A stretch of 64,000 nucleotides of DNA from Actinopolymorpha pittospori (GTDB lineage Bacteria; Actinomycetota; Actinomycetes; Propionibacteriales; Actinopolymorphaceae), in the NCBI RefSeq assembly GCF_014873875.1, contig NZ_JADBEM010000001.1, forward strand, positions 5,208,001 through 5,272,000, written 5' to 3'. A program made the position numbers and the translations under genes. The notes beneath the pieces were generated by a model that saw nothing but the letters and a program-made list of their open reading frames with translations, had not been told where the DNA came from and made no database searches. This document shows positions 4,635-16,037 of the stretch, one piece after another. Positions within the stretch are counted from its first letter, which is position 1, and each line of letters starts with the position of its first letter.

Positions 4635-5369
4635 TCAGGTCGTGACGGTCCAGTCCTCTTCGAGGCCGACCTGGCCATAGAGGGCCCGCCGCTTCTCCTT
4701 GTCGCGGGTCGCGTGCCGCCACGCGTGCGTGGCGACGTCCTCGGCCTTGGCCGCCGGAACGACGACCACGCCGTCCCCGTCGGCTACCACCACGTCGCCG
4801 GGATGGACCACGGCACCGCCACAGTTGATCGTGACCTGGGTGGCGTCGAGTTCGATCCGGCCGGGGCGGATGGTTCGCGAGATGTAGCGGCTGTAGACGG
4901 GCGTCTGCTGCTTGATCAGCTCGTCGGTGTCGCGGGCGCCGCCATTGGTGACCGCGCCGACGGCGCCGTGGGCGATCCAGGACAGCGCGTTGTTGGAGCC
5001 GATGAAGCCCACGCTGCCGAGTTCGAAGCCGTCGATGACGATGAGGTCACCCGGCTGGATCTGGTCCCGGATCGGCCCCTGGGCGTACTGGCCGTACCAG
5101 TCCGACATCCACTCGTAGAACTCCTCCGGTGTCTGTGCCGGGACGGGTCGCTGGGTAGGAACGAAGCGGACCGTGTGAGCGACGCCGTAGATCCGGTGCT
5201 TGAAGTTCTCCGTGTCACGCCACAGGGGTCGGATGTCGCGGGACATCTGCCCCATGTCCTCCAACCCGACGGCGTCCATGCCGTCGCAGACATCGGTGAC
5301 TCGCAGCCCCTGGTAGCTTTCCAGGCCGCTTCGTACGTCGGTCCGTTTGTCGACTTCCACGTCGGTCAT
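4635..5369 (-). CDS. RraA family protein (HMG/CHA-aldolase-like fold)
   Basis: Member of the RraA/4-hydroxy-4-methyl-2-oxoglutarate aldolase superfamily, 244 residues from an ATG at 5369 preceded by GAGGGG. Seen: LRVTDVCDGMDAVGLEDMGQM near the N-terminus, the phosphate/oxoacid-binding loop region IDGFELGSVGFIGSNNA, the GAVGAVTNGGARDTDEL segment matching the family G-x-V-x-D-G-x-x-R-D region, and PGDVVVADGDGVVVVP near the C-terminus. In that segment the usual Asp-Gly is Asn-Gly (TNGGARD), which could alter metal binding. Some relatives are aldolases or decarboxylases of sugar-acid breakdown, others RNase E inhibitors; an aldolase-like role fits this operon. It lies between the binding-protein scrap and the permeases. 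Confidence 0.85.
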   Translation of the reverse strand: MTDVEVDKRTDVRSGLESYQGLRVTDVCDGMDAVGLEDMGQMSRDIRPLWRDTENFKHRIYGVAHTVRFVPTQRPVPAQTPEEFYEWMSDWYGQYAQGPIRDQIQPGDLIVIDGFELGSVGFIGSNNALSWIAHGAVGAVTNGGARDTDELIKQQTPVYSRYISRTIRPGRIELDATQVTINCGGAVVHPGDVVVADGDGVVVVPAAKAEDVATHAWRHATRDKEKRRALYGQVGLEEDWTVTT

Positions 5370-5777: not shown

Positions 5778-6455
5778 ATGCCCGTCCCCTGTGTCGTCCA
5801 CCCCGCCAGCCCTGCTCCGGCGCCGGAGCTGCTCTCCCGCCTCGCCGCCCTTTCGACGTCCCTGGTCTCCGACGTGTTCGGCCGCTGGGCCGGGGCGCCG
5901 GGCATCATGCCGGTCACCGGTCTCGCTCCGGGCCAGGTCGTGGTGGGTCCGGCCCTGACCGTTCGTACCCGCCCTGGCGACAACCTGGTCGTCCACAAGG
6001 CCGTCGATCTCGCCGTCCCCGGCGAGGTCCTGGTCGTGGCGGCCGGCGGCGCCAACGACCGCGCGATCCTCGGTGGCCTGCTCGGCGCTCACGCTGCCCG
6101 TCGCGGTCTCGTCGGACTGGTCGTCGACGGCGCCGTTCGCGACCTGACCGAACTCCGGGAGGCCGCGCCCCCGACCTTCGCGACCGGGGTCTGCCACCTC
6201 GGTCCCTACAAGGACGGACCCGGTGAGATCCGCGGTCCGGTGTCGATCGCCGGGCTCGCCGTCCATGACGGCGACCTGGTGATGGCCGACGAGGACGGCG
6301 TGGCCGTCATTCCGCGCGCGCTCGCCGACGAGGTGACCGCGGCCGCGGAGAAGAAGGCGCACAGCGAACAGCAGGAACGGGCCGCCATCGACGCCGGCAC
6401 GTGGGACCGCGGCTGGCTCGAGGAGGCGTTGGAGATCCAGACCCCCGGAGCCTGA
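5778..6455 (+). CDS. RraA family protein (HMG/CHA-aldolase-like)
   Basis: Second RraA-superfamily gene, 225 residues, transcribed divergently from the first. The signature is clear: AAGGANDRAILGGLLGAHAARRG followed by the GLVGLVVDGAVRDLTEL segment, which contains the Asp-Gly and Arg-Asp residues that bind substrate and metal in the aldolases. PVSIAGLAVHDGDLVMADED follows. The ATG at 5778 has GAAGGAG seven bases upstream. Unlike the neighbour at 4635, the DG motif is intact, so this copy is the better candidate for a working oxaloacetate decarboxylase or HMG-type aldolase. It stands alone before the kai genes, with no other operon partner. Confidence 0.88.
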   Translation: MPVPCVVHPASPAPAPELLSRLAALSTSLVSDVFGRWAGAPGIMPVTGLAPGQVVVGPALTVRTRPGDNLVVHKAVDLAVPGEVLVVAAGGANDRAILGGLLGAHAARRGLVGLVVDGAVRDLTELREAAPPTFATGVCHLGPYKDGPGEIRGPVSIAGLAVHDGDLVMADEDGVAVIPRALADEVTAAAEKKAHSEQQERAAIDAGTWDRGWLEEALEIQTPGA

Positions 6456-6611: not shown

Positions 6612-6968
6612 GTGTCGACCAACACAGGCGAGGACAGGGGACCGGAGGTGACCCTGCCGCCCCTGCCCTCGTTCTCACTGCGACTCTTCGTCTCGGGTGA
6701 CACCGAGCTCTCCGTCGCCGCCGAGACGCGGCTGCGATCCCTCTGCGAGAGCAGGCTTCCTGGCGGCTACCAGCTGGAGGTCATCGACGTCTCCGAGCAC
6801 CCCGACCTCGCCGACGAGGACCAGATCGTGGTGATCCCGACCGTGGTTCGGCTGGCGCCCATTCCGCAGCGTCGCGTGATGGGCGACCTCTCCGACGACG
6901 TGCGTACCGCCGCGGCTCTCGGTCTCCCCGACCCGGACCAGGTCGTCTTCGGAAGGGGCCGGGAGTGA
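6612..6968 (+). CDS. kaiB: KaiB-like circadian clock protein
   Basis: Small thioredoxin-fold protein of 118 residues. After a 20-residue leader it reads FSLRLFVSGDTELSVAAETR, YQLEVIDVSEHPDLADEDQI and then VVIPTVVRLAPIPQRRVMGDLSD, which follows cyanobacterial KaiB nearly block by block ([49 protein letters not shown]). The GTG start at 6612 has an AGGTG site just upstream. Its last codons overlap the start of kaiC by four bases (GTGA), so the pair is co-translated. In cyanobacteria KaiB binds phosphorylated KaiC and resets the cycle. There is no kaiA in the window. Confidence 0.92.
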   Translation: MSTNTGEDRGPEVTLPPLPSFSLRLFVSGDTELSVAAETRLRSLCESRLPGGYQLEVIDVSEHPDLADEDQIVVIPTVVRLAPIPQRRVMGDLSDDVRTAAALGLPDPDQVVFGRGRE

Positions 6969-8425
6969 CCGAGCGGGACCTCATCGACAAGGTCCCCACC
7001 GGCATCACCGGCTTCGACCCGGTCGCTCTCGGCGGGCTGCCGGCCGGACGAAGCACCCTGGTGGTCGGAAGTACGGGCAGCGGGAAGACGGTGTTCGCCG
7101 TCGAGTACCTCGCCCGCGGCATCTCCCGGTTCCAGCAGCCCGGCGTGTTCGTGACGTTCGAGGAGAGGCCATCCGCCGTCCGAAGGAACGCCGAGTCGCT
7201 GGGCTTCCCGATCGCCCAGTGGGAGAACGCGCACACCTGGGCCTTCGTCGACGTCTCCGAGCGCGCCGAGGACGAGGCTGTCACGGTCGGCGTCTACAAC
7301 TTCGCGGCCCTGGTGGCCCGGATCGAGAGTGCCGTCCGAAGGATCGGAGCCACCCGGGTCGTGCTGGACTCGATCGGTGCCGTCTTCGCCCGCTATCCCG
7401 ACATCGGGACCATCCGCACCGAACTCGTCCGGCTCTCCGCCGCCCTCGACCGGATGGGTGTCACGACGGTGATCACCTCCGAGCGGCGGGAGAATCAGGA
7501 CGGGCTGTCCAAGCTGGGGGTGGAGGAGTTCGTCCTCGACAACGTGGTCGTCCTGCGCAACGTCCTGCACCAGGAACGGCGCCGGCGGACCGTGGAGGTG
7601 GTGAAGTTCCGCGGGGCGCCTCACCGCTGCGGTGAGTGGCTGTTCACGATCGCGGAGGAGGAGGGGATGGTCGTCATCCCCCTCGCCTTCCTCGAACACC
7701 GCGAGCGGGCGTCAGGGTTGCGCGTCTCCTCCGGCAACGAGGGACTGGACGCGATGTGCGGCGGCGGCTTCTACCGGGACTCGATCATCCTGGTCACCGG
7801 ACCCACCGGCGCCGGCAAGACGCTGCTCAGTCTCGGGTTCGCCGACGCGGCCTTCCGGGCCGGTCAACGCTGTCTCTTCTACTCCTTCGACGAGACCCGC
7901 CAGCAACTCGCCCGCAGTGCCAAGGGTTGGGGCTTCGACCTCGACGTCATGGAGGACGCCGGCCTGTTGCGCGTGGAGGCGGAGTACGCCGAGGTGGCCT
8001 CCCTCGAGGATCACTTCCTGAAGATGAGAAGGGCGATCGCCGAGTGGAAGCCTCAGCGAATGGTCGTCGACACGGTGTCGGCGCTGGAACGGATGGGCCC
8101 GACCCGTTCCCTGCTGGACTTCATGATCGCGCTCGGAACGCTGCTGCGCCAGCATGAGATCACCAGCCTGCTGACCTCGATACCCACCCGTGGAGGGGAG
8201 GTCCGCACGCCACAGGTCGCACTCGAACTCACCGGCCTCACCGACGTGACGATCATGCTGCGCGACCTCGAGGGGCCGGGTGAGATCCGCCGCGCTGTGT
8301 CGGTCCTCCAGATGCGGGGCTCCGCGCACGACTCCGCCATTCGCAGGGTTCGCATCGACGAACGGGGCATGCACATCGGCGAACCCCTGCCCGAGCTCTC
8401 CCGCATCTTCGTACCCGGAACGTAG
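6965..8425 (+). CDS. kaiC: KaiC-like double-RecA ATPase/kinase
   Basis: Two tandem RecA-type domains, 486 residues, close to the cyanobacterial KaiC length of about 519. CI has Walker A GSTGSGKT at residues 35-42 and the paired catalytic glutamates in FVTFEERPS (E66, E67). CII has Walker A GPTGAGKT at 279-286 and FSYSFDETRQQL-like catalytic residues D309/E310. The C-terminal block GEIRRAVSVLQMRGSAHDSAIR matches the family. Where S. elongatus KaiC has the autophosphorylated S431-T432, this protein has T423-G424, so dual phosphorylation cannot occur in the known way. It also lacks most of the C-terminal KaiA-binding tail, ending SRIFVPGT. The GTG start overlaps kaiB. Confidence 0.93.
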   Translation: MTERDLIDKVPTGITGFDPVALGGLPAGRSTLVVGSTGSGKTVFAVEYLARGISRFQQPGVFVTFEERPSAVRRNAESLGFPIAQWENAHTWAFVDVSERAEDEAVTVGVYNFAALVARIESAVRRIGATRVVLDSIGAVFARYPDIGTIRTELVRLSAALDRMGVTTVITSERRENQDGLSKLGVEEFVLDNVVVLRNVLHQERRRRTVEVVKFRGAPHRCGEWLFTIAEEEGMVVIPLAFLEHRERASGLRVSSGNEGLDAMCGGGFYRDSIILVTGPTGAGKTLLSLGFADAAFRAGQRCLFYSFDETRQQLARSAKGWGFDLDVMEDAGLLRVEAEYAEVASLEDHFLKMRRAIAEWKPQRMVVDTVSALERMGPTRSLLDFMIALGTLLRQHEITSLLTSIPTRGGEVRTPQVALELTGLTDVTIMLRDLEGPGEIRRAVSVLQMRGSAHDSAIRRVRIDERGMHIGEPLPELSRIFVPGT

Positions 8426-8513: not shown

Positions 8514-9353
8514 TCAGTCGGCGCTGCACAGCATCGCGCGGATGCCGACCGTGAGGCCGACCGCGGCGGTGGCGAGGGCCGCGACCCATCCCCACAGCAC
8601 GGCCGAGGACGTGAGGTCACCCGCGAACAGCGCCCGCTCGGCGTCGACGACGTAGGCGAGCGGATCGAACCGCGCGGCGATCCGCATCCACTCCGGTCCT
8701 GTGTCGAGCGGGAGCAGCATGCCCGAAAGGATCATCAGCGGAAAGAGCAACGTCTGTTGGACGACCCAGAACATCCAGTCCTGCTTGCGAACCGCGATCG
8801 CGAGCGCGTAGCTCAGGGAGCCGAGCCCGACGCCGAACACCGCCAGCATGGCCAGGCCGAGCAGACCGCCGACCGGATGGAGCTGGAAGCCGAACGGCGT
8901 CATCACGGCGACGATGATGACGGCCTGCCCGGCCAGCGGCACCATCTCCTTCAGCGAACGCCCGACCAACAGCGACGGTCGGGACAGGGGAGTGACGAGC
9001 ATCCGCTCGTGCGCACCGGTCTGGAGTTCATAGAGCAGGTTCGAGCCCGTGGTCGACGTGCCGAAGAGCGCCGTCATCACCAGGATCGAGGGGACGAACC
9101 ACTGCCACACGTCGCCTCCGAGCGCGCCGTCGGCCTGCCCGCCGAGTGAGCCGACGAGCAGCGGACCGAACAGGGCGAGGAACACCAGCGGCTGGATCAT
9201 GCCGAACAGCAGCGAGAACGGGTCGTGGAGTACGGGCCGAAGCTCACGCACCATGACGATGGCCGTGTCCCGGAGCAGCCCGCGCGGGGCGTCCTCGGGC
9301 TGCGGCGGGCGGGTCGGGGGAGGCGTCCGCGTCTTCGTGGCGAGGGTGTTCAT
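8514..9353 (-). CDS. ABC-2 type exporter permease (DrrB-like)
   Basis: Membrane subunit of a two-gene ABC exporter, 279 residues. A Pro-rich cytoplasmic leader is followed by VMVRELRPVLHDPFSLLFGMIQPLVFLALF, typical of ABC-2 permeases, and six predicted helices. The segment PLSRPSLLVGRSLKEM with the preceding loop matches the DrrB/ABC-2 signature region. Its ATG overlaps the stop of the ATPase gene by four bases. Such pairs export drugs, lipids or natural products; no biosynthetic genes are nearby, so the substrate is unknown. Confidence 0.9.
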   Translation of the reverse strand: MNTLATKTRTPPPTRPPQPEDAPRGLLRDTAIVMVRELRPVLHDPFSLLFGMIQPLVFLALFGPLLVGSLGGQADGALGGDVWQWFVPSILVMTALFGTSTTGSNLLYELQTGAHERMLVTPLSRPSLLVGRSLKEMVPLAGQAVIIVAVMTPFGFQLHPVGGLLGLAMLAVFGVGLGSLSYALAIAVRKQDWMFWVVQQTLLFPLMILSGMLLPLDTGPEWMRIAARFDPLAYVVDAERALFAGDLTSSAVLWGWVAALATAAVGLTVGIRAMLCSAD

Positions 9354-10351
9354 GCCGCGTCCTTCCGCGTGGGGCCTGCGTTGCCGTTCGGTCCGGCTTC
9401 TGCTTCGCGCAGGCTGCGACCGGTGAGATTGAGGAAGACGTCATCGAGCGTCGGACGGTGGACCTGCGCGGTGGCCACCGGTACGCCGGCGTCCCTCGCC
9501 GCTGCGAGCAACTCCGGCAGCGCGCGCGGACCGTCGGCCACCCGGATTTCGACCTGGCTGCCCTCGGCGTCGACCTCGCGGACGCCGCTCAGCCGCTCGG
9601 CGAGCGTGGCGAGGCGGCGGGTGTCGTCGGGTGCGTCGGTCGTCGCCACGATCCGGTCGCCGGCGAGCTTCGACTTGAGCGCTTCGCCCGTGTCGTCGGC
9701 GATGATCTCGCCGTGGTCCACCACGACGACGCGGGCGGCCATCGAGTCCGCCTCGTCGAGGTAGTGGGTCGTCAACACGATCGTCATGGCGTACCTCTCG
9801 CGCATCCGCAGGATGTGTTCCCAGAGGTTCGCGCGGTTGTGCGGGTCGAGCCCGGTGGACGGCTCGTCCAGGAAGAGCAGGGACGGTGCGTGCACGAGTC
9901 CCATCGCGACGTCGAGGCGCCGTCGCTGCCCGCCGGACAGGTCGGACACCTTGCGGCCGGCGAGTTCGGTGAGGTCGAGCGCCTCGAGTAGTTCGTCCGC
10001 GCGCTGTCCGGCGGCACGCCGCCGCAGGCCGTAGATCAGGCCCTGACAGTGGAGCTCGTCGCGCGCCCGCTGCGCGTGGCCGGCGCCGTTGCCCTGGCCG
10101 ACGTAGCCGATCCGTCGGCGTACCTGTGCCGGTTCGGCCACCACGTCGTGACCGGCGACCGTCGCACTGCCTGACGTCGGTGCGATCAGGGTCGTGAGCA
10201 TGCGCATCGTGGTCGTCTTGCCGGCGCCGTTCGGGCCGAGCACGGCCACCAGTTCGCCGGGTTCGATCTCCAGACTGAGGCCTCTGACCGCGTGCACGGT
10301 CTGGCGCTTGCTCACCACGAAGTCCTTGGTGAGCGATCGGGCGCGAATCAC
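9350..10351 (-). CDS. ABC exporter ATP-binding protein (DrrA-like)
   Basis: ATPase subunit, 333 residues. Walker A is GPNGAGKTT, the signature is LSGGQRRRL, Walker B is LLFLDEPSTGLD, and the switch His lies in LTTHYLDEAD. The GTG at 10351 is chosen because GGGGAGG lies six bases upstream and the next residues IRARSLTKDF are where the family normally begins. The C-terminal 100 residues form the DrrA-type extension, ending near HRPTLDDVFLNLTG. It is co-transcribed with the permease at 8514 and diverges from the phosphotriesterase gene. Confidence 0.93.
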   Translation of the reverse strand: MIRARSLTKDFVVSKRQTVHAVRGLSLEIEPGELVAVLGPNGAGKTTTMRMLTTLIAPTSGSATVAGHDVVAEPAQVRRRIGYVGQGNGAGHAQRARDELHCQGLIYGLRRRAAGQRADELLEALDLTELAGRKVSDLSGGQRRRLDVAMGLVHAPSLLFLDEPSTGLDPHNRANLWEHILRMRERYAMTIVLTTHYLDEADSMAARVVVVDHGEIIADDTGEALKSKLAGDRIVATTDAPDDTRRLATLAERLSGVREVDAEGSQVEIRVADGPRALPELLAAARDAGVPVATAQVHRPTLDDVFLNLTGRSLREAEAGPNGNAGPTRKDAA

Positions 10352-10537
10352 GGGACGCCTCCCCACATGGGATCGGGTTCTTGGATTGCGAACGGGACCG
10401 ACCATTCCAGGGACAGCGGCCAGTTTCTGTCCCCAATCGGGGGCGTCCGCGATTCGCCGACGCGAAATCCGAGGCCGGCGGGTGAGAGGCGGAGAAACGA
10501 TCACTCCAGGCGGTCCGGCTCCGCTACCGTGCCCACC

Positions 10538-11431
10538 ATGACCGCCCCGGAGCACCTCGCGACCTCAGCCGTCGTCATCGAGGACAGCGTCCTCGTCCAC
10601 GAGCACGTCCTCGTCGACTTCGGAGGCGTCCTGCGCCCTGGCAGCTACGACGCCGAGGACGTCTTCGCGGCGGCGAGGCCGAAGCTCGAGGAGGCATACG
10701 CGCTCGGCTGCCGGCGGCTGCTGGAGTGCACGCCCCACCACCTCGGCCGGGACCCGTGGCTGCTCGCCCGGCTCGCCGACGCGACCGGGGTGGAGATCTG
10801 GACCAACACGGGGATCTACGGCGCAGCATCCCGGGTCGGCGTGCCGGCCTACGCGCGAGAACTCTCCGCGGAGGACCTCGCCAGGCGCTTCGTCGACGAG
10901 CACACCAACGGGATCGACGGCGTACGTCCGAGGTTCGTCAAGACGGCCGTCCGGGACGGAAAGCTGGAGGACCTCGACCGCAAGCTCGTCCGGGCCGCGG
11001 CGCTCGCCGCCCGGGAGACCGGCCTCACAGTCGCGTCCCACACGACCGCCGGCATCGCCGCGGTCGAGCAACTCGCCATCTTCGACGAGGTGGGCGTTCC
11101 GACGAGCCAGTTCGTCTGGGTGCACGCTCACGCCGAGGAGGACCCCGCCTACCACGAGCAGGTGGCGCGGGCGGGAGCGTGGGTGGAGTTCGACGGGCTC
11201 CGGCCTGGCGAGACGGAGTGGCAGCGCACCTGTGTGGAGCGGCTCGCGGCGGCCGGGTTGCTGGGCCGCACGCTGATCGCCAACGACAGCGGCTGGTACC
11301 ACGTGGGCGAGCCGGACGGCGGGGAGTTCCTCGGCTACGACTTCGTTTACACCGACCTGCTCCCGACGCTCGACCCCGCGTGGCACCGCACCCTCATGGT
11401 CGACAACCCGCTCGCGGCGTTCGGTCGCTGA
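10538..11431 (+). CDS. Phosphotriesterase/aryldialkylphosphatase family hydrolase
   Basis: Amidohydrolase-superfamily enzyme, 297 residues from ATG 10538. Metal ligands follow the phosphotriesterase pattern: HEHV near the N-terminus, the bridging Lys in RFVKTAV, His in ASHTTAG, His in WVHAHAEED and the catalytic Asp in ANDSGW. Many such proteins are lactonases or act on sugar lactones rather than organophosphates. No Shine-Dalgarno is obvious before the ATG. The 186 bases between it and the divergent exporter ATPase gene must hold both promoters, but no clear motif was seen. Physiological substrate unknown. Confidence 0.85.
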   Translation: MTAPEHLATSAVVIEDSVLVHEHVLVDFGGVLRPGSYDAEDVFAAARPKLEEAYALGCRRLLECTPHHLGRDPWLLARLADATGVEIWTNTGIYGAASRVGVPAYARELSAEDLARRFVDEHTNGIDGVRPRFVKTAVRDGKLEDLDRKLVRAAALAARETGLTVASHTTAGIAAVEQLAIFDEVGVPTSQFVWVHAHAEEDPAYHEQVARAGAWVEFDGLRPGETEWQRTCVERLAAAGLLGRTLIANDSGWYHVGEPDGGEFLGYDFVYTDLLPTLDPAWHRTLMVDNPLAAFGR

Positions 11432-11479
11432 GGCGGCTCGCGGGGGCCGGGAGCGTCGCGTCGTCCACCACGAAACATG

Positions 11480-11511
11480 TGCACAATTTTCTTTGCACAA
11501 TTTCTTGTGCA
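11480..11511. promoter_or_regulatory. Probable operator of the winged-helix regulator
   Basis: An A/T-rich island in GC-rich DNA carries TGCACAA at 11480, TTGCACAA at 11493 and the inverted copy TTGTGCA at 11505. It ends 17 bases before the GTG start of the regulator at 11529, where autorepression would act. The outer and inner copies can pair as an inverted repeat around an A/T spacer. The link to this regulator is inferred from position. Confidence 0.6.
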
Positions 11512-11528
11512 TCGCTAGGGTGGCACTC

Positions 11529-12125
11529 GTGCCCGACCAACCCATCCGTGAGCTCGGCGACCTCCGTGCACTGAAGGTCCTCGCGCACCCGCTGCGCAAC
11601 CAGGTCTTCGAACACCTCCGGTTGCACGGCCCCGCGACGTCGGCGTCCCTCGCCCGGGATCTGGACGTCAACACCGGCGCGACCAGCTACGCCTTGCGGA
11701 TGCTGGCGAGCCACGGATTCGTCGAGGAGGTCCCGGAGCGCGGCCGCGGTCGGGAACGTTGGTGGCAGGCCGTACGCCGCGACTACCGACTGCCCCCGCC
11801 CGGCCAACGTGACCCCGCGCAACGCGCGATGGTCGACGAGATGCAGCGACTTGGGCTCGCCGCCGACCTCGACATGCTCGCGGCCTTCCAGCAGCAGCGT
11901 CCCGCGATGGGGGAGTGGGCCGACGCGACCCCGTTCTCCCGTTCGTCGATCCGGGTGACACTCGCCGAGCTCGAGGAGTTCTTCGAGGAGTACCTCGCGT
12001 TGGTGCGCCGCTACATGCGCACCGACGAGGAGGCCCCGGAGGGCTCCCGGACGGTGGTCACCCGACTGCTCGCGTTCCCCGCCCCGGACACCGAGGGGGA
12101 CGGGGACGAGCCACCGTCGGGATAG
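11529..12125 (+). CDS. ArsR-like winged-helix transcriptional regulator
   Basis: DNA-binding regulator of 198 residues. The N-terminal half is a winged helix: LRALKVLAHPLRNQVFEHLR, then GPATSASLARDLDVNTGATS for the recognition helix and LASHGFVEEVPERGRGRERWW for the wing. The C-terminal half is helical and may dimerise. The GTG at 11529 has AGGG eight bases upstream; an in-frame GTG nine bases earlier has no room for a site. It has a candidate operator directly upstream and an asparaginase gene 180 bases downstream. Its targets are unknown apart from probable autoregulation. Confidence 0.85.
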   Translation: MPDQPIRELGDLRALKVLAHPLRNQVFEHLRLHGPATSASLARDLDVNTGATSYALRMLASHGFVEEVPERGRGRERWWQAVRRDYRLPPPGQRDPAQRAMVDEMQRLGLAADLDMLAAFQQQRPAMGEWADATPFSRSSIRVTLAELEEFFEEYLALVRRYMRTDEEAPEGSRTVVTRLLAFPAPDTEGDGDEPPSG

Positions 12126-14185: not shown

Positions 14186-14383
14186 GTGAATCTGACGGGA
14201 TGGGCACGCGCCCAGGGGATCGCGCCGCGTACCGCGTGCCGCTGGTTCCGTGAGGGCACGTTGCCGGTCCCTGCGGAGCGAGTGGGGCCGCGCACGATCC
14301 TGGTGAATATCGACGCTTACGGGTTGGGCTCGGCGAGCAACCGTGCCCGCAGGGCGCTGGAGGCGGCGGCTGCCGATGAGTAA
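14186..14383 (+). CDS. IS607 TnpA reduced to its HTH domain
   Basis: A 65-residue product from GTG 14186 (or 69 from ATG 14174). It begins like IS607 resolvases, NLTGWARAQGIAPRTACRWF then REGTLPVPAERVGPRTILV, a MerR-like helix-turn-helix. Directly after that it ends YGLGSASNRARRALEAAAAD, which resembles the extreme C-terminus of IS607 TnpA (YGRRSARNRALRAV type). The roughly 120-residue serine-recombinase domain between them is absent, apparently removed in frame. It overlaps tnpB by eight bases and could be translated with it. It can bind DNA in principle but not recombine. Intact TnpA is normally about 190 residues. Confidence 0.75.
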   Translation: MNLTGWARAQGIAPRTACRWFREGTLPVPAERVGPRTILVNIDAYGLGSASNRARRALEAAAADE

Positions 14384-16037
14384 GAAGCAGCTCGCCACCA
14401 TGAGTAGGAAGCAGTTGCGCACCATCGATGCTGCGTTCGTCGCTCCCGGCCCGTCCGGGGTGGCGATACGCGACCGCCTCAAACACCTCACGGCCGAGGA
14501 CGAGGAGGTGTTGCGGCTGGTTGGTGAGCATCTGGGCGCTCTGGCGTCGGGGGATCTCAAGGCGCGCTGCGCCGATGGGTTGGACCACAGCGCGGAGGCG
14601 TGGGCGGCCCGTAAGCAGGGCCTGACGGCGCAGTCGTCGTCGCGTTGGGCCGGGTCGATCACGAAGGCGTCCCACGATCAGTGGGCGCTGTCGCGGCGCT
14701 GCCAACGTGCGCACATCCAGGGTCTGGAGGCCGGTGTGGCCACCCTGGCGCACCGCCTGTCTCAGCCTCTGGGGGAGCGGGGCACCAGCCGGGCACCGGG
14801 TGGGTACCGGGGCAAGGGCGAGTGGTTCCACAAGTCCCGCCGCCTGGCGGCCCTGCAGCACCGCCTCGATGTTGCCCGCGCTGAGGCTGAGGCCGGGCGT
14901 GTGCACGTCGTGCGTGGTGGCAGGCGCCTGATCAACACCCGTCACCACCTGGACAGGGCCCAGCTCAGCGAGCTCGAGTGGCGTCAGCGGTGGGAGGCGC
15001 AGCGCTGGTTCCTGGCCGCTGACGGGGAGTCCGGCAAGCGCTTCGGCAACGAGACGATCCGCGTCAGCCCGGACGGCGAGGTCAGCATCAAGCTGCCCGC
15101 CCCGCTCGTCCACTTGGCGAATGCCCGCAACGGTCGTTACGTGCTGGCCTCCGTGGTTGCCTTCACCCACCGGGGCGTGGAGTGGCGCGACCGTATCTTG
15201 GTGAACCAGGCCGTGGCCTACCGCATCCACCTGGACGTGGCGCGTGGGCGCTGGTACCTCACCGCGGCGTGGAGGCGGCCGGTGGTCCAGACGATCCCGC
15301 TCCAGGCGGCCCGCGCTGCCGGGATGGTCGGGGTGGACACCAACGCCGACCACTTCGCCGCCTACCACCTCGACCCCCACGGCAACCCCGTCGGCGAACC
15401 CAGGCGGTTCTTCTACGACCTGTCCGCAACCGCCGACCACCGTGACGCGCAGATCCGGCACGCCATCAGCCGCCTGCTGCACTGGGCCAAACGCTGCGGC
15501 GTGGCTGCGATCGGTATCGAGAACCTGGACTTCACCGCCGAGAAGACCCGTGAGAAGCACGGCCGCAAGAAGCGTTTTCGGCAGCTCGTTTCCGGGATCC
15601 CTACCGGCAAGCTGAAGGCAAGGCTCGTCAGCATGGCTGCTGCCCAGGATCTGTCGATCGTGGCCGTCGATGCGGCGTACACGTCGATGTGGGGCGAGGA
15701 GCACTGGCGCAAGCCGTTGACGAGCAACAAGCGAAAGATGTCCCGACACGATGCCGCTGGTATCGCGATCGGGCGACGCGCCCTCGGGCACCCGGTCCGG
15801 CGACGGACGGCACCGCCCCACGACGACCAGAGCGATCGTTGTGGGCATCGGACCGCCCAGGCCGGACCAGAGGCACGAGGGCGTGAGGGAACCCGCCCAC
15901 CCGTCACGGAGCGTGCACACGATGCACGTTGCCGGCCGGGGACTCAGCGAACGCGGGAGACCAGCGCATCCAACACCGTTCGGGATGCGCGCAGTTCCAG
16001 GACGTGGCACCAGATGCCACTCCCGGACACTGCTTAG
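14376..16037 (+). CDS. tnpB: TnpB-family RNA-guided nuclease without zinc finger
   Basis: 553 residues, longer than typical TnpB (about 400). The RuvC catalytic triad is complete: D321 in VGVDTNADHF, E382 in IGIENLDF and D459 in SRHDAAGIAIG. The segment between the last two should carry a CxxC...CxxC zinc ribbon, but here reads VDAAYTSMWGEEHWRKPL with no cysteines. The C-terminal 85 residues are Arg/Pro/Thr-rich and of low complexity, as where a guide RNA overlaps the end of the gene. The ATG at 14376 is chosen because it overlaps the tnpA stop. TnpB proteins cut DNA at a site specified by a guide (omega) RNA and help the transposon persist. Codon use and GC match the host. Confidence 0.85.
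   Translation: MSKKQLATMSRKQLRTIDAAFVAPGPSGVAIRDRLKHLTAEDEEVLRLVGEHLGALASGDLKARCADGLDHSAEAWAARKQGLTAQSSSRWAGSITKASHDQWALSRRCQRAHIQGLEAGVATLAHRLSQPLGERGTSRAPGGYRGKGEWFHKSRRLAALQHRLDVARAEAEAGRVHVVRGGRRLINTRHHLDRAQLSELEWRQRWEAQRWFLAADGESGKRFGNETIRVSPDGEVSIKLPAPLVHLANARNGRYVLASVVAFTHRGVEWRDRILVNQAVAYRIHLDVARGRWYLTAAWRRPVVQTIPLQAARAAGMVGVDTNADHFAAYHLDPHGNPVGEPRRFFYDLSATADHRDAQIRHAISRLLHWAKRCGVAAIGIENLDFTAEKTREKHGRKKRFRQLVSGIPTGKLKARLVSMAAAQDLSIVAVDAAYTSMWGEEHWRKPLTSNKRKMSRHDAAGIAIGRRALGHPVRRRTAPPHDDQSDRCGHRTAQAGPEARGREGTRPPVTERAHDARCRPGTQRTRETSASNTVRDARSSRTWHQMPLPDTA
15964..16020 (+). ncRNA. Candidate omega-RNA scaffold hairpins at tnpB 3' end
   Basis: Two perfect hairpins lie in the last 75 bases of tnpB: GCGCATCC/GGATGCGC with an 11-base loop at 15964-15990, and GTGGCA/TGCCAC with a 5-base loop at 16004-16020. 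TnpB guide RNAs typically have their structured scaffold at this place, with the guide reading past the element's right end. If so, the guide would start near 16038 in the inverted propeller fragment. Inferred from position and structure only. Confidence 0.4.

Follow-up and report, generated by a model that had tools for sequence, protein, structure and literature searches.

The change in KaiC phosphorylation has been described as the feature at the centre of the circadian rhythm (PMC10076222); CI hydrolysis and KaiB binding are regarded as determinants of the pace as well (PMC8929707). In Synechococcus elongatus KaiC, E318 activates T432 and S431, E319 binds Mg2+ and the phosphates are stabilised by K294, K457 and R459; the E318A and E318D mutants are both arhythmic, loss of phosphoryl transfer being stated for E318A only (PMC2777353). 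Conservation of the glutamate pair and of the Ser-Thr or Ser-Ser sites is described for cyanobacterial KaiC (PMC5520375). When its autokinase is inactivated at CatE2 or K294, KaiC retains KaiB binding, and the cyanobacterial AA phosphosite mutant exhibits no KaiB binding and a high ATPase activity (PMC3823767). Outside cyanobacteria, SasA homologues are reported to have no KaiB-like domain (PMC5520375). In the KaiBC hourglass of Rhodobacter (Cereibacter) sphaeroides, KaiB associates with the CI ring in its post-hydrolysis state, phosphorylation having a marginal effect, and speeds up the ATPase (PMC10076222).

The kaiB-kaiC pair of Actinopolymorpha pittospori

The window analysed here, a stretch of 64,000 nucleotides, encodes a genuine KaiB-KaiC pair. 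The kaiB gene (6612..6968, plus strand) has a GTG start and codes for 118 aa. Its product was matched by the KaiB family model PF07689 with 73.8 bits (E 9e-21, cut-off of 27) and contains the sole KaiB domain of the genome above the cut-off. The best solved relative is the KaiB of PDB entry 8fwj, aligned over the core (residues 23-99) with an E-value of 2.5e-20, and the alignment shows that the GDLSD segment is present. The kaiC gene (6965..8425, plus strand) codes for 486 aa comprising two RecA-like domains, and in the translation of the window its start overlaps the kaiB stop as GTGA at 6965-6968. KaiC was matched by PF06745 in 2 stretches (333.7 bits) and by the NCBIfam KaiC model PRK09302 (553.6 bits for a cut-off of 408). 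The search of the PDB retrieved 28 distinct KaiC sequences at E <= 1e-100, and a solved KaiC could be aligned across residues 6-482. The protein thus contains two KaiC domains, each with a Walker A motif, and aligns with KaiC over its full length, as expected for a member of this family. These matches and the overlap bear out the initial annotation of a KaiB and a two-domain KaiC joined by GTGA. By that annotation's own criterion, a grouping of the ATPase with RadA, gas-vesicle or other RecA families would have told against the clock label; the alignment with clock KaiC spans the whole protein, and RadA, GvpD and archaeal KaiC were ruled out, their models scoring below cut-off. The narrower models TIGR02654 (KaiB) and TIGR02655 (KaiC) also scored below their own cut-offs, so that the pair can be described as clock-family proteins outside the cyanobacterial equivalogs.

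The window sits in a single contig of 10.56 Mb, which allowed us to search the whole genome for other clock components. One full KaiC is encoded: two of the five places matched by PF06745 belong to it and the remaining three cover at most 76 of the 231 positions. No KaiA (PF07688) was detected above cut-off in the 10.56 Mb, the S. elongatus control being above it, in agreement with the earlier description of a pair without KaiA. The genome-wide check for sasA and ldpA proposed with that description was likewise negative: PF07689 yielded four weak matches below its cut-off and kaiB alone above it, so no second KaiB-like domain of the SasA type was found above cut-off, and there was no LdpA_C match in the genome. 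The assembly (G000, 10.56 Mb) is larger than those of five congeners (6.4-8.0 Mb) and has a contamination estimate of 8.3%.

Catalytic and phosphorylation sites of KaiC

We aligned 58 KaiC sequences: that of the window, 2 PDB chains and 55 sequences from genome, metagenome-assembled and plasmid loci. The window KaiC belongs to a clade of 28 full-length proteins, 10 from Actinopolymorphaceae and 18 from a second family in another order (f92). For residue counts, a fragment from one congener (G004) was left out, yielding 28 clade members and 29 other sequences. Residues are numbered according to PDB chain 7dy1, labelled as KaiC of TE via its match to 5jwq; this numbering is the same as that of S. 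elongatus in CII and one higher in CI. A second alignment, of the 28 clade members against a profile of 12 canonical KaiCs, gave the same counts at all tested positions except T426, which was not relied on because a difference in loop length makes its placement unsure.

In CI, K53, T54, E79, D146, K225 and R227 are kept in all 28 clade members, and E78 is Glu in 24 and Asp in 4. In CII, the Walker A motif GPTGAGKT (7799..7822, plus strand) is kept in the window, and the positions of K294 and T295 within it, like D378, R385, R451 and R459, are kept in 28/28 clade members. The position of E319 is occupied by Glu in 23 members, Gly in 4 and Val in 1. From the presence of E319 in 23/28 and of K294, R385 and R459 in 28/28, CII may still hydrolyse ATP.

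The residues of the autokinase site are different. In the window, Asp309 (codon 7889..7891, plus strand) stands where CII has its catalytic glutamate, E318; this position is Asp in 28/28 clade members and Glu in 26 of the 29 other sequences. K457, which contacts the phosphate from the next subunit, is replaced by Gln449 (8309..8311, plus strand); the clade comprises 27 Gln and 1 Arg at this position, and outside it Lys is found in 26 of the 28 sequences with a residue there. Finally, the phosphosites S431-T432 correspond to Thr423-Gly424 (8231..8236, plus strand). None of the 28 clade members exhibits the canonical Ser-Thr pair: the first position is Ala in 25, Thr in 2 and Ser in 1, the second Ser in 13, Gly in 11, Arg in 2, Ala in 1 and Asn in 1. 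No hydroxyl is left at either site in 14 members, all belonging to the second family, one is left in 12 members (Thr at 431 in the case of the window) and both in 2 members (Thr-Ser and Ser-Ser). The window KaiC thus lacks the residue set of a CII autokinase, with E318 changed to Asp, K457 to Gln and S431-T432 to Thr-Gly. The phosphosite that underlies the known Kai timers looks degenerate in it. The initial annotation had described the Walker and catalytic acidic residues of KaiC as complete; this holds for the two Walker A motifs and for the glutamate pair of CI, but not for the catalytic glutamate of CII.

The pair shares with the cyanobacterial KaiABC oscillator a homologous KaiB, a homologous two-domain KaiC and the catalytic motifs of CI. 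It differs in the E318D and K457Q replacements, in Thr-Gly for Ser-Thr and in the lack of KaiA in the genome; moreover, the window KaiC ends about where the C-terminal tail of the cyanobacterial protein starts. With the Rhodobacter hourglass (PMC10076222) it has in common a KaiB and a KaiC without KaiA. In the Rhodobacter KaiC, however, Glu318 and Lys457 are present together with a Ser-Ser pair, and the tail is long (578 aa for its row in our alignment, 486 aa for the window).

Other KaiCs with unusual CII residues were observed. L084 (G750) and L086 (G738), of family f102, have Asp-Gln or Asp-Arg at E318-E319, Leu-Ala at S431-T432 and Gly at K457. In the tree they branch at a large distance from the window clade, and they are apparently an independent pair of KaiCs with a degenerate CII; no KaiB was detected in the 11 kb surrounding the G750 copy. 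L119 (G1200), a second KaiC copy belonging to the long-tailed group with Ser-Ser, carries Val at position 318, and its sequence makes it possibly another natural kinase-dead KaiC.

Phylogeny, distribution and gene neighbourhood

The larger tree comprises 47 of the 58 rows; 9 long-tailed KaiCs, an incomplete row from Rhizobium and the truncated copy were excluded. The 28 clade KaiCs form one side of a branch with a support of 100/100, and a first tree of 37 rows agrees (12 clade rows at 100/100). Within the clade, the window KaiC groups with four Actinopolymorpha copies, with supports of 97/95 in the 37-row tree and 99/96 in the 47-row tree. This grouping with four congeneric copies led us to reject the idea that the window pair by itself was recently acquired from a foreign source. 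Neither family forms one side of a branch in the 47-row tree, in which two changes are needed for each, so that transfer, or duplication with loss, is possible inside the clade. The window branch is long, at 0.45 and 0.51 changes per column in the two trees.

We also calculated dN/dS for 12 close pairs of the clade. The values, which are rough as several pairs have a low or high dS, range from 0.13 to 0.45 in CI and from 0.08 to 0.46 in CII, below 0.5 for 12/12 pairs in both domains; the window KaiC, too distant from its nearest relative, is not among these pairs. CII is thus under constraint in the clade, although less so than CI in three pairs belonging to the G803 subgroup (0.41-0.46 vs 0.14-0.30). 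The identity to the KaiC of entry 8zn5 is 0.539 for the clade and 0.554 for canonical KaiCs in CI, and 0.470 and 0.641, respectively, in CII. The median within-group ratio of CII to CI divergence is 1.16 in the clade, 0.81 in canonical KaiCs and 1.26 in the long-tailed group; this ratio was not used as evidence because the latter group, with mostly intact residues, is also raised.

A window-like KaiC was found in 6/6 genomes of the genus using an E-value limit of 1e-40. With a limit of 1e-60, matches were obtained in 7/8 genomes of the family, 12/293 of the order and 13/394 of the class, many of those at the order and class levels being other KaiC groups. KaiB was detected in 18/396 genomes of the phylum; apart from the window's own genome, all of them (17) belong to other classes. 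A KaiC with 56-63% identity to that of the window was recovered from the second family in 18 of the 341 genomes searched and 9 of the 68 genera (limit of 1e-140). One genome, that of A. rutila (G003), carries three separate kaiB-kaiC pairs (L060, L061 and L062). In another (G004, L066, about 9000-11700) we observed a kaiC fragment, covering query residues 140-445, without kaiB and adjoining two genes which by eye resemble transposase genes.

Such a KaiC is likely to be new to the literature. The word 'Actinobacteria' is absent from the main text of a 2017 survey of Kai proteins (PMC5520375). Our search of the open-access literature returned nothing on KaiC with Actinopolymorpha, KaiC with Streptosporangiales or 'circadian clock protein KaiC' with actinomycete, and passages from open-access papers on KaiB/KaiC phylogeny with Actinobacteria describe no such protein. 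A KaiC clade with a degenerate CII kinase site is thus likely absent from print.

In 28/28 full-length clade loci, KaiB precedes KaiC on the same strand (KaiB of L124 being located by tblastn), with -1 to 77 nt between the aligned stretches. A PAS histidine kinase is systematically found 3' of kaiC in the second family (18/18 loci, 17 by clustering and L125 by direct scan). The PAS, HisKA and HATPase Pfam domains were confirmed on one of these kinases; all 18 have a G2 box and an H-box of the form AHE(L/V/I)xxPL (15 by pattern and three by eye). A divergent response regulator, checked to be of LuxR type in one case, lies 5' of kaiB in 12 of the 18 loci. The Rhodobacter locus similarly has a histidine kinase nearby, in the gene order kaiC-kaiB-kinase. 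Homologous KaiCs are also found in kaiB-kaiC-PAS-kinase loci of other bacteria (Chloroflexota, Actinomycetota, Planctomycetota and Sphingobium): of 13 loci outside the clade, 7 encode a homologous PAS next to kaiBC or kaiC (E-value of 1e-4), which suggests that the kinase linkage is ancestral. Unlike the clade members, these seven PAS-linked KaiCs keep Glu318 and Lys457, as well as the Ser-Thr pair in all except L077.

In Actinopolymorphaceae, a homologous PAS is retained at kaiBC in only 1 of the 10 loci and is gone from the other 9. The exception (G001, L065:12789-14400) encodes a PAS 60% identical, followed by a GAF domain and by a kinase core below the Pfam cut-off, with, by eye, a Tyr at the apparent phospho-His position. 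No PAS-kinase partner was found beside kaiBC in the window's own locus, and among genome matches at an E-value of 1e-20 or better, the best to a second-family kinase covers the HisKA-HATPase part only (33%). The pair is flanked by an ABC-2 permease with a DrrA-like ATPase, a PTE-family protein and two divergent RraA-like genes next to kaiB (4635-5369, minus strand, and 5778-6455, plus strand). Two ABC permease clusters of this flank recur near the kaiBC of one other genome (G007); within the stretches fetched, the broad ABC-ATPase cluster recurs in 6/28 loci and the PTE cluster in a single further one. Apart from these two permease clusters and two orthologous locus pairs (L058/L059 and L062/L063), the kaiBC neighbours differ among Actinopolymorphaceae. 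The tie to sugar utilisation considered in the initial annotation is therefore not supported, and we rejected the sugar-gene context as a functional clue, the neighbours not being conserved among the compared kaiBC loci. Further along the window (14376-16037, plus strand), a 553-aa open frame resembles, by eye, transposon proteins of the TnpB type, with no Pfam match at an E-value of 0.01.

Possible modes of action

The conservation of the CI motifs, the presence of KaiB beside KaiC in 28/28 loci, the loss of the CII kinase residues and the dN/dS values below 0.5 favour a KaiBC module which would work via the ATP/ADP state of CI and KaiB capture, the S431/T432 phosphorylation cycle being given up or nearly so. 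We lean slightly towards this reading, with which the KaiB binding of autokinase-dead KaiC (PMC3823767), the marginal effect of phosphorylation on KaiB binding in Rhodobacter (PMC10076222) and the arhythmic E318D mutant (PMC2777353) agree. The CI ring would hydrolyse ATP slowly; KaiB, after its fold switch, would capture the ADP-bound (post-hydrolysis) ring and feed back on CI, and CII would persist as an ATP-binding scaffold holding the hexamer. The readout would then be KaiB occupancy or the nucleotide state, as in an ATP/ADP-driven switch or a one-shot timer and not in a phospho-oscillator, and in the second family the output might pass through the PAS histidine kinase encoded behind kaiC. 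The loss of phosphorylation, the CI/KaiB mechanism and its output are all what we infer from sequences. Hours-long timing and simple energy sensing may both fit a module of this kind, and residual phosphorylation at a single site may persist in Actinopolymorphaceae. The lack of KaiB binding in the cyanobacterial AA mutant (PMC3823767) would count against KaiB capture in the clade members bearing Ala.

The pair could instead be an ordinary hourglass as in Rhodobacter, in which CII still phosphorylates, Asp309 is the base, the single hydroxyl left (Thr423; Ser at 432 in most Actinopolymorpha) is the acceptor and the ATP/ADP ratio resets the system. The window keeps the Walker A, E319, R385 and R459 positions as well as one hydroxyl at the phosphosite, and Asp can act as a base, E318D, unlike E318A, not being said to lose phosphoryl transfer in the S. 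elongatus study (PMC2777353). E318D alone nevertheless stops the rhythm in S. elongatus (PMC2777353), K457 is lost throughout the clade, half of its members, all of the second family, have lost both hydroxyls, and the long C-terminal coiled coil of the 578-aa Cereibacter protein is absent. The residues thus argue against phosphorylation and dephosphorylation set by ATP/ADP and KaiB in the window KaiC, and we regard a Rhodobacter-type hourglass as unlikely. More doubtful still is a role without any timer, KaiC and KaiB being an ATP-dependent scaffold tuning a signalling partner in stress or development. The PAS-HisKA-HATPase kinase of the 18 second-family loci, with its LuxR-type regulator in 12, would be such a partner; this arrangement is however compatible with timing as well, and the window's own locus has no such gene. 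We consider it very improbable that the pair is, in the lineage of the window, the decaying remnant of a former kaiBC-kinase operon. The length of the window branch, the disappearance of the PAS kinase from 9/10 Actinopolymorphaceae loci and the congener with a truncated kaiC and no kaiB would fit decay, but both window genes are open with complete CI motifs, a full kaiC is present in 6/6 genomes of the genus, and dN/dS among the relatives, if not for the too distant window KaiC itself, is below 0.5.

On the CI/KaiB reading, a broader proposal can be made tentatively, as a real possibility that we hold at somewhat less than even confidence: in two actinobacterial families, KaiB and KaiC may form a natural timer or energy switch that dispenses with phosphorylation and relies solely on KaiB capture and the ATPase of CI, one of the two families retaining a PAS histidine kinase beside kaiBC. 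The annotation 'circadian clock protein KaiC' is no proof of a phospho-clock. A natural KaiC lineage in which CI and KaiB are kept and the kinase site is lost lets one ask what KaiBC does without a phosphorylation cycle. If true, a phosphorylation-free KaiBC would separate KaiC timing from KaiC phosphorylation.
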